Positions 8,117 through 18,003 of a stretch of 64,000 nucleotides of DNA are shown here, in pieces. Under the pieces are notes generated by a model that worked only from the letters and a program-made list of their open reading frames with translations, was not told the origin of the DNA and made no database searches. Made by a program: the position numbers and the translations under genes. The stretch's first letter is position 1. The number at the start of each line of letters is the position of its first letter. This DNA comes from Hyalangium gracile (GTDB taxonomy: Bacteria; Myxococcota; Myxococcia; Myxococcales; Myxococcaceae): NCBI RefSeq assembly GCF_020103725.1, contig NZ_JAHXBG010000001.1, positions 248,001 to 312,000 on the forward strand, in the 5' to 3' direction.

Positions 8117-9594
<1,478 letters not shown>

Positions 9595-9729
9595 GGCAGG
9601 CAGAATCCTGTCATGCCTGCGGAGCAGACCCCATTTGCGACGCTCCTGAGCGCGGAGTTCCCTCCTCACGAGAGCGCAGCGCCAGCACCCGCGTCCGGCT
9701 CGCGAACGCCATGATAAGGTCCTGGGCGC

Positions 9730-10251
9730 TTGCCTGGAAGAATCCTGATCATCGAAGCAGAGAAAACCCCAGCGGAGCCTCTTCGCCAGGCGCTGGAGGC
9801 GCGCGGCTTCACGGCCGAGGTAGTGACACACACCGACGGGCTCATGCAGCGCATCAGCCAGGAGCCACCCGCGCTGGTGGTCCTCGCCGTGGATCTGGCT
9901 GAGGGTCAGAACGGCTACCTGCTCTGCGGCAAGATGAAGAAGGACGCTGCCCTCCAGCGCATACCCATCATCATCACCGGCAAGCCGGACGGCTTCGACG
10001 CTCATCGCAAGCTCAAGGCCCGCGCGGATGCCTACGTCGCCCGCCCGGTAGCACCTGACGCGCTCGTCGAGGTGGCCGAGCAACTGCTGCGAGGCGCGCC
10101 CGGAGAGCCCCAGCCTTCCAAGCGCGCCTCCTCCCGAGAGCCTCCACCTCCCGAGCGCTCTCAGACCGAGCCAGGGCTTCTCTGGGGAGGCATCGGCGCG
10201 GCGCTGGCGCTCGCCGCGGCCCTGGCCGCGGGCTGGTTCCTTCTCCGGTAG
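9730..10251 (+). CDS. FrzS-like pseudo-receiver protein with C-terminal membrane anchor
   Basis: 173 residues from a TTG start (AAGG about 10 nt upstream; first residues PGRILIIEAE match receiver starts). The receiver-like domain (3-122) closely follows the atypical receiver of the motility protein FrzS: LVVLAVDLAEGQNGYLLCGK with Asp55, PIIITGKPDGFDAHRKLK with His92, and AYVARPV. Normal receivers have a Thr/Ser after the fourth strand and a DxMPxxdG loop; these are altered here, so phosphotransfer is unlikely. FrzS continues with a coiled coil; this protein instead has a Pro-rich linker and one membrane helix (about 148-172, GIGAALALAAALAAGWFLL). Likely a membrane-tethered protein-interaction module. 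Confidence 0.75.
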   Translation: MPGRILIIEAEKTPAEPLRQALEARGFTAEVVTHTDGLMQRISQEPPALVVLAVDLAEGQNGYLLCGKMKKDAALQRIPIIITGKPDGFDAHRKLKARADAYVARPVAPDALVEVAEQLLRGAPGEPQPSKRASSREPPPPERSQTEPGLLWGGIGAALALAAALAAGWFLLR

Positions 10252-10298
10252 GTCTTCTCGCTCCCTCCTCCGGTGTCGGCCGTCTATTCTGAGCGCGC

Positions 10299-11369
10299 AT
10301 GGCCCCCCAGACGCTGGAAGCACGAGCTCTCAAGCAGGGCTCGCCCGTCATCGATGGAGACACCGCCACCTTCGTGTGGCGCGGGCGCAAGCCTGTCCTC
10401 GTTCATGGGGACTTCCAGGACTGGAGCGGACAACCCCTGCCGCTGGAGCGGGTGTCCCCCTCGCTGTGGACCCGTACGCTCACGCTCCCGCGAGATGCCT
10501 ACGTCGAGTACTCGCTCTCCGATGCTCGTGGCCGCAAGGTGGAGGATCCCCTCAACCGCCAGCTCACCGACAACGGGTTCGGCGGCTTCAACCACTCCTT
10601 CTCCATGCCCGAGCACACGCCCACGCCGCTGGCTCGGCAACTCCGCGGAAAGGCCGCGCGCGGCCGCATCACCCGCCACCAGGTACAGACCTGGGAGCTC
10701 GCCGTCGGAGACACCCGCGAGGTGGTCCTCTATGAGCCTCCCGTGGCCGGCCCCCACCCGCTCGTGGTGGTGCTCGACGGGACGGACTATCTGCGCCGCG
10801 CGAGCCTCGTCACCGTGGTGGACAACCTCATCCGTGAGAAGCGCATCCGCCCCGTGGCCCTCGCCATGGTCGCCAATGGCGGCCCGGCTCGCACCGTGGA
10901 GTACGCGTGCAGCGAGGCCACACTGGGCTTCCTGCTCAACAAGGTCCTCCCGCTCGCCCGGGAGAAGCTCCCGCTCATCGACGAGCGTCGCAAGCCCGGC
11001 GTCCACGGCGTCCTCGGCGCGTCCCTCGGCGGGCTGATGGCCCTCTACACCGGAATGCGCGCTCCCCACGTCTTCGGACGCGTACTCAGCCAGTCCGGCG
11101 CCTTCGCCCTCAGGAACTACGACTTCGTCCTCTCCACCCACGACTTCGTCGTGTTCGAGCTCGCCCGAGCACCCCAGCGCCGACGCCTCTCGGTGTGGCT
11201 CGACTGCGGCTCCTTCGAGCGCCTCACCGAGGGCAACCGACTCATCCTCCCCGTCCTCGAGCAAGCCGGGCATCGCGTCCACTACCGCGAGTACTCCGGA
11301 GGCCACAACTACCCGGCCTGGCGAGACGATGTGTGGCGGGGCCTCGAGTGGCTCTACCCGTACCGGTAG
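10299..11369 (+). CDS. Fes-like esterase with N-terminal E-set domain
   Basis: 356 residues. An N-terminal domain (about 20-105; VLVHGDFQDW, then AYVEYSLSDARG) resembles the glycogen/carbohydrate-binding-like E-set found in enterochelin-esterase-type enzymes. An alpha/beta hydrolase follows: LVVVLDGTDYL, nucleophile Ser242 in GASLGG, a WLDCGSFE acid region, and His336 in GGHNYPAW. Such enzymes hydrolyse ester bonds, for example of siderophores or feruloyl groups. There is no signal peptide, so it acts in the cytoplasm. It starts 47 nt after the pseudo-receiver gene. No siderophore genes are nearby, so the substrate is open. Confidence 0.8.
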   Translation: MAPQTLEARALKQGSPVIDGDTATFVWRGRKPVLVHGDFQDWSGQPLPLERVSPSLWTRTLTLPRDAYVEYSLSDARGRKVEDPLNRQLTDNGFGGFNHSFSMPEHTPTPLARQLRGKAARGRITRHQVQTWELAVGDTREVVLYEPPVAGPHPLVVVLDGTDYLRRASLVTVVDNLIREKRIRPVALAMVANGGPARTVEYACSEATLGFLLNKVLPLAREKLPLIDERRKPGVHGVLGASLGGLMALYTGMRAPHVFGRVLSQSGAFALRNYDFVLSTHDFVVFELARAPQRRRLSVWLDCGSFERLTEGNRLILPVLEQAGHRVHYREYSGGHNYPAWRDDVWRGLEWLYPYR

Positions 11370-17694: not shown

Positions 17695-17793
17695 GCGCCT
17701 TGGCGGCTGCCGCGTAGCGGGGTCGCTCCCGTCACAAGCCACTCCCGTCGGCTCAGCCTCTCTGGATGGGCGCCATGCCCGAAGGAGAGCGCG

Positions 17794-18003
17794 ATGAGCA
17801 CGCAGAGCACCCGGAAGTCCTTCATCCAGTACGAGCTGCCCACCAAGGCCCTGGAGCAGGTTCAAGGAGGCAAGGGGAAGGTGACGACCCTGGCGGTGGG
17901 CGAGGAAGGTGGCACCGTCACGACGACGGGGGTGGGCGAGGAGTGCTGCGAGCCTCGCATCACGACGTTCGGGCTGGGCGAGGAGGCCGGCACCTGTACC
18001 TGA
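17794..18003 (+). CDS. Graspetide-like (plesiocin-type) RiPP precursor peptide
   Basis: 69 residues from ATG 17794, with GAAGGAG 6 nt upstream. A leader-like N-terminus (SFIQYELPTKALEQVQGG, residues 9-26) is followed by three exact TTxxxxEE blocks: TTLAVGEE (31-38), TTTGVGEE (43-50) and TTFGLGEE (57-64), spaced 12 and 14 residues. TTxxxxEE is the defining core repeat of plesiocin, the graspetide from the myxobacterium Plesiocystis, in which an ATP-grasp ligase joins Thr side chains to Glu carboxylates. Cys51, Cys52 and Cys68 are additional. No ATP-grasp gene is visible in this window; neighbours are a WD40 kinase and an amidohydrolase. Precursor identity is strong on motif; the maturation partner is unknown. 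Confidence 0.8.
   Translation: MSTQSTRKSFIQYELPTKALEQVQGGKGKVTTLAVGEEGGTVTTTGVGEECCEPRITTFGLGEEAGTCT

Follow-up and report, generated by a model that had tools for sequence, protein, structure and literature searches.

A peptide of 69 residues encoded in the Hyalangium gracile genome is likely, at a level of good though not decisive confidence, to belong to a dispersed graspetide pathway, in which the precursor would be modified in trans by a PsnB-type ligase, exported by a separately encoded C39 exporter and released as a three-hairpin product. The window, i.e. the whole 64-kb stretch of DNA that was analysed, corresponds to G000:C1:248001-312000 of this 11.7-Mb genome (G000). As judged from the sequences, the precursor would be transcribed from its own promoter, carrying a GTCACAA...CTC element. 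The PsnB-like ligase (G000:C1:112846-113793), encoded 152 kb away, would bind the leader motif KSFIQYELP and form Thr-Glu esters within every TTxxxxEE block. An HlyD/HlyD/C39-ABC exporter on contig C2, located behind a GTCACAA-N14-CTC element, would then cleave after Gly25-Gly26 and export the product, which is probably a secreted serine-protease inhibitor with loops differing at the first x of TTxxxxEE. The preliminary description of this DNA had missed the double-glycine leader, the common element upstream of it and the exporter operon located elsewhere. In the following, a full-length precursor of the window type that is remote from the ligase gene is termed a satellite.

The features of the window gene are listed in Table 1. 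The product (MSTQ...GTCT) has cysteines at 51, 52 and 68. Reading of the open reading frame confirmed the places given earlier for the three TTxxxxEE blocks, and a strong ribosome binding site is indeed found just upstream of the ATG. The real window holds three TTxxxxEE blocks in its open reading frames, forming one triplet within 60 aa. Across 30 shuffles that approximately preserved the dinucleotides of the window, the mean was 0.2 blocks in open reading frames and the maximum two, and a triplet within 60 aa never occurred. The three blocks, present in 7/7 orthologues, are the core pattern of the plesiocin group (group 2). By its sequence the window peptide is a plesiocin-type graspetide precursor, as the preliminary description had claimed; the conservation of TTxxxxEE in orthologues, proposed there as a check, is complete. 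The single window peptide matched nothing in NCBIfam or in a PDB sequence search, and a degenerate TTxxxxEE DNA pattern was too common in the whole genome to be useful (296 occurrences versus 198 for the reversed control). A PDB search with the satellite profile gave as its best match the PsnA2 14-38 peptide of 7drm, although this match is weak (E 0.032).

Table 1. Features of the satellite precursor gene and its upstream region in the window.
Feature	Position	Strand	Remarks
Satellite graspetide precursor, 69 aa	17794..18003	+	Full-length relatives in 7/96 family genomes, same 7 of 195 phylum genomes
Promoter-like element GTCACAA-N14-CTC	17731..17754	+	63 bp 5' of start codon; core TCACA-N15-CTC in 7/7 satellites
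Ribosome binding site AAGGAG	17782..17787	+	Direct reading; directly 5' of ATG
Leader motif KSFIQYELP, residues 8-16, putative recognition element of the ligase	17815..17841	+	K[ST]FI[QD]YELP in 7/7 satellites
Double-glycine processing motif LEQVQGG, residues 20-26	17851..17871	+	LxxxxLxx[VI]xGG: 7/7 satellites, 0/24 ligase-linked precursors
Core block 1 TTLAVGEE, residues 31-38	17884..17907	+	
Core block 2 TTTGVGEE, residues 43-50	17920..17943	+	
Core block 3 TTFGLGEE, residues 57-64	17962..17985	+	

Searching the family genomes with the peptide gave matches in nine of 96 at E<=0.001, seven being full-length. With the profile, 24 of 195 phylum genomes were matched at E<=1e-5, and the full-length relatives were found in the same seven. 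The carriers are G000 and G006 of the genus Hyalangium, G020 of genus g15, and G013, G033, G060 and G061 of the genus Archangium. Two peptide-search matches (G067, G100) were rejected as satellites because they are multi-repeat precursors adjoining a ligase, and two further candidates (G115:C303, G182:C20) because they are fragments of multi-repeat precursors at contig ends. The six other full-length relatives are 56-74% identical to the window peptide over the alignment. In the seven satellites all 12 T/T/E/E block positions are invariant, together with every GEE glycine and leader residues K8, F10, I11, Y13, E14, L15, P16, K18, L20, V23, G25 and G26. Rough pairwise dN/dS values for seven pairs range from 0.21 to 0.51. 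It should be mentioned that every satellite has at least one cysteine (counts 3, 2, 1, 1, 1, 1, 1), between blocks 2 and 3 in 5/7, and that the ligase-linked precursors of the seven satellite genomes have none. The cysteine positions shift between satellites, so that the three cysteines noted earlier are treated as an observation and not read as a second modification.

The satellites occupy two unrelated genomic sites. In the genus Hyalangium and g15 they adjoin, or lie a few kb from, an amidohydrolase gene, and in the four Archangium genomes they stand beside a phospholipase-D-like gene (assigned from sequence). The site is kept in 4/4 Archangium carriers and in both Hyalangium-genus carriers. 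A search for an empty site by an HpnE-like flank in four Archangium genomes matched only one (G013), leaving the empty site unproven. The kinase and the amidohydrolase, presented earlier as the genomic context of the peptide, were rejected as partners: the kinase adjoins the satellite in G000 and G006 only, and gene calling around the Archangium satellites gave neither of the two as a neighbour.

The earlier statement that no ATP-grasp gene lies in the window agrees with our searches. Using tblastn, PsnB gave no match at E<=1 in the 64-kb window, and none below E 0.03 in the flanking 10 kb on each side or in the six other satellite loci (~20 kb each). A genome search with the MvdD family gave five matches, all below the curated cut-off and none inside the window: two on C13, one on C21, one at C1:113209 and a weak one at C1:97747. 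The C21 match is an MvdD-like ATP-grasp ligase (L117, about 9235-10712, minus strand) with a small upstream open reading frame, whose leader ends EELEQVRGG and whose core is without TTxxxxEE; close orthologues of this ligase are found in 5 of the 14 genomes examined, G000 included. The match at C1:113209 belongs to the PsnB-like ligase gene mentioned above, on the same contig as the window peptide. Its product has a RimK-like ATP-grasp domain (Pfam), with all NCBIfam matches below curated cut-offs, and the top PDB match is PsnB 7drm (E 2e-40), followed by one at 5.5e-18. The gene is divergent from its own adjacent precursor, which has the leader SFIRYELP and two blocks, TSMAVGEE and TTMGLAEE. 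The leader motif SFI[QR]YELP is common to this precursor and the window satellite. The genome search for a ligase, proposed earlier as a check, thus comes out in favour of the suggestion that the maturase may act in trans, giving a candidate enzyme whose neighbouring precursor has the leader motif of the window peptide. The other option raised at the time, a new class without a local ligase, is not supported, a PsnB-like ATP-grasp gene being present in the genome.

A close PsnB (at least 58%, E<=1e-110) is found in 24 of the 96 family genomes, or 25 including a partial gene in G009. All seven satellite genomes have one, with 77-100% identity and never within the satellite loci examined, and among the genomes searched satellites occur only together with a close PsnB. 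In Archangium (g8) the satellite is present in 4/4 genomes with a close PsnB and in 0/2 without it (G059, G062). In the genus Hyalangium, G001 and G003 have neither, and G002, G004 and G005 have PsnB without a satellite. The chance of such co-occurrence is 3e-5 (7 in 24 of 96), or 0.035 within 14 genomes of three genera; both values ignore phylogeny, and the test is weak once relatedness is counted.

To compare the satellites with ligase-linked precursors, 24 ligase loci from 23 of the 25 genomes were examined (G090 and G009 were left out). At each of them the neighbouring precursor fits a loose leader pattern of the F[ITV]x[YF][EA] type, which was chosen after seeing the sequences. The double-glycine pattern separates the two kinds of precursor completely (Table 1). 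Double-glycine leaders have hydrophobic residues at -12, -7 and -4 and Gly-Gly at -2/-1, and this arrangement, as in PCAT substrates, is found in 7/7 satellites (LPTKALEQVQGG). The plesiocin leader motif LFIEDL is absent from the satellite. Since the solved plesiocin fragment likewise has GG upstream of its core, the leader of the satellites seems to join the ligase motif found locally to a GG end of plesiocin type.

Ligase-linked precursors contain one block in the four Archangium genomes and one or two in the genus Hyalangium and g15; the remaining ones have 5-18 blocks (some cut at contig ends) joined by Pro/Gly/Lys-rich linkers. Six such loci (L107, L102, L103, L101, L044 and L045) encode 14-18 T[TS]xxxxEE blocks in one protein with linkers of this kind. 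It is noted that the multi-repeat precursor of L045 (8239-11252, G023:C193) lies between a close (58%) and a distant (33%) PsnB-like ligase, and that in G002 a second PsnB-type ligase (L099, 10461-11540, G002:C370) stands beside a long precursor with RTxAxPEEGGG blocks and a core without TT. Within TTxxxxEE the second x is A in 162/169 ligase-linked and 18/21 satellite blocks, and the fourth x is G in 162/169 and 21/21, respectively. The first x is the most variable (L, M, K, Q, A, R in ligase-linked blocks; L, M, Q, E, T, F, K in satellites). This variability fits a position that faces the protease. Plesiocin is a serine-protease inhibitor, with potency growing with the number of motifs (PMC13097080).

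The satellites also have an upstream element in common. The sequence TCACA-N15-CTC stands 62-115 bp upstream of the start in 7/7 satellites, despite the two unrelated genomic sites. A shared-word test was applied to the 150 bp upstream of the seven satellites, with dinucleotide shuffles of four representatives as control. One word was common to all seven, and any such word appeared in only 1 of 1000 shuffles of the four representatives. The exact form GTCACAA-N14-CTC is present in three satellites (G000, G006, G060). It has six sites in the G000 genome, compared to two for the reversed pattern. One precedes the satellite, one the C2 exporter operon (by 56 bp) and one a gene on C11 for a small lipoprotein; the other three have no obvious target gene. 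The product of the C11 gene (L187 from 1501; G000 C11:81441) is Cys-rich. In 11 relatives the exact element has 4-13 sites each, 102 in total, versus 1-8 and 55 for the reversed control, and it equals the control in G002 (5 vs 5) and falls below it in G005 (4 vs 8). The enrichment is only about twofold by number alone, and the case therefore rests on what stands downstream of the sites.

In G002, three of the five exact sites belong to the exporter operon and to two pairs of a double-glycine precursor and an ATP-grasp gene, 56-77 bp upstream of the start codon. In the two pairs the element lies 63 and 77 bp upstream of the precursor, which is followed by the ATP-grasp gene; for the first pair, where the gene finder gave a longer open reading frame, the ATG behind the ribosome binding site was taken as the start. 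The cores of these pairs (L219, G002:C38:102900-106000; L220, G002:C156:24000-27500) are unlike plesiocin (WFISTYSNNGGPDVDWLK; RLAVQDLACTCPNTCGPCGPDDH). Inspection covered 20 of the 102 sites, and most of the 18 besides the G002 pairs precede or fall inside unrelated genes, so the element is not confined to peptide genes. No copy of it was detected at the G000 PsnB locus, from which it follows that ligase and satellite need not be co-expressed. As a general link between satellite and ligase locus the element was rejected, since among the ligase-linked loci scanned only that of G006 has it upstream of the precursor.

The candidate exporter operon (G000:C2, about 710.2-714.4 kb) encodes two HlyD-family proteins and an ABC exporter with C39 peptidase, ABC membrane and ABC ATPase domains. 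Its best NCBIfam match is NHLM_micro_ABC1, below the cut-off. There are three C39 ABC exporter matches in G000, on C2, C22 and C23, with frames of 745-763 aa, the other two standing beside lanthipeptide-type genes (assigned by inspection). Orthologues of the C2 exporter (at least 77%) are found in 12 of the 14 genomes of three genera. GTCACAA precedes the operon in 12/12 of them and the full element in 10/12, G060 and G062 differing in the last three bases. The distance from element to start in these orthologues, about 44-60 bp, was extrapolated from tblastn. Exporter and element are also found in genomes without satellites.

Several other explanations have to be weighed against this pathway. 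The link to the C2 exporter may be a matter of chance, with PsnB maturing the satellite and another C39 transporter or a protease processing it. We regard this as unlikely, though by no means negligible: two other full-length C39 ABC transporters are available in G000, the element also precedes unrelated genes, and it is only modestly more frequent than the control. On the other side, the exact element is found, among the three C39 exporters, only on the contig stretch of the C2 operon, where it is kept in 10-12 of 12 orthologues. It is improbable that the satellite leaves the cell as an unmodified double-glycine peptide, such as a signal, with inherited TTxxxxEE blocks that are no longer cyclised. 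Such a peptide would explain the double-glycine leader and the ligase in trans, and the satellite gave a weak match to the ComC leader (E 0.019, below the family cut-off). However, the 12 ester-forming positions and the three GEE glycines stay fixed in all satellites whereas the first and third x vary, and the restriction of satellites, among the genomes searched, to those with a close PsnB also speaks against it.

Maturation by a different ATP-grasp system, either the MvdC/MvdD-like pair on C13 or the C21 ligase, is a decidedly improbable alternative. Both are present in G000, and the leader of the candidate C21 precursor likewise ends in LEQVRGG. Nevertheless, the C13 pair is accompanied by a PFFARLLE-type precursor of its own, whose core differs; a close C21-type orthologue (at least 74%) is missing from satellite genomes G013, G033 and G061, where the best match reaches 34-39%; and TTxxxxEE cores adjoin PsnB types only, among the ligase loci inspected. 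Finally, the satellite could be a decaying, functionless copy of a former graspetide cluster, being isolated, without a local ligase and patchy in distribution (7/96 genomes). We find this very hard to credit, as the gene is intact in 7/7 genomes under the dN/dS values given above, its upstream element is conserved, and its place is kept among the Archangium carriers and the two of the genus Hyalangium. The dispersed pathway with PsnB acting in trans is thus the reading we prefer.

Taken more broadly, it is about as likely as not that graspetides in some myxobacteria are organised in a dispersed regulon and not in clusters. A GTCACAA-N14-CTC promoter, possibly read by a common sigma factor, would turn on scattered double-glycine precursors and one common HlyD/C39 exporter, and PsnB, encoded beside its own precursor, would modify a remote one in trans. 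Graspetide mining generally begins at ATP-grasp genes and then inspects their neighbours, and remote precursors are therefore missed. A literature search, mostly outside subscription papers, found no description of a graspetide whose precursor gene lies far from that of the ligase. With its ligase motif and its double-glycine site, such a precursor offers a direct test case for in-trans maturation, and the common upstream element a route to further scattered precursors and their exporter.

Among known systems, plesiocin (PsnA2/PsnB, group 2) is similar in its TTxxxxEE repeats, in the GG upstream of the core (the PsnA2 14-38 peptide, 7drm_E, reads LFIEDLGKVTGGKGGPYTTLAIGEE) and in the PsnB-type ligase, which G000 also encodes. 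In contrast, the satellite gene is not beside the ligase gene, an adjacency that is usual in known loci but lies outside the chemical definition. Its leader has K[ST]FI[QD]YELP in place of LFIEDL, and at a greater distance from the GG, and there are three repeats compared to four in plesiocin (PMC5934393). The upstream element resembles ECF41 sigma promoters, for which PMC3426412 gives a -35 of TGTCACA, similar to [C/T]GTCACAA. However, the spacer to the 3' part is ~14 instead of 16 +/- 1, with CTC and not CGTC; the window reads CGTCACA-n14-GCTC and does not match the ECF41 promoter TGTCACA-n16-CGTC.

Microviridins of class II/III with C39 transporters have a PFFARFL-type leader and two ligases. 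They combine a double-glycine leader with a C39 peptidase/ABC exporter (PMC13039773). Their exporter is usually located in the cluster, whereas the candidate exporter of the satellite is elsewhere. Scattered precursors are already known in other peptide classes. Heterocycloanthracin precursors often lie outside the local context of their modifying enzymes (PMC4603692), with azoline chemistry as opposed to ATP-grasp esters. For prochlorosins and synechococsins, lanthipeptides made by ProcM and SyncM, a single remote enzyme serves precursor genes dispersed across the genome (PMC10783134). These systems differ in chemistry from the graspetide case, which has one satellite per genome together with a separate ligase-adjacent precursor.
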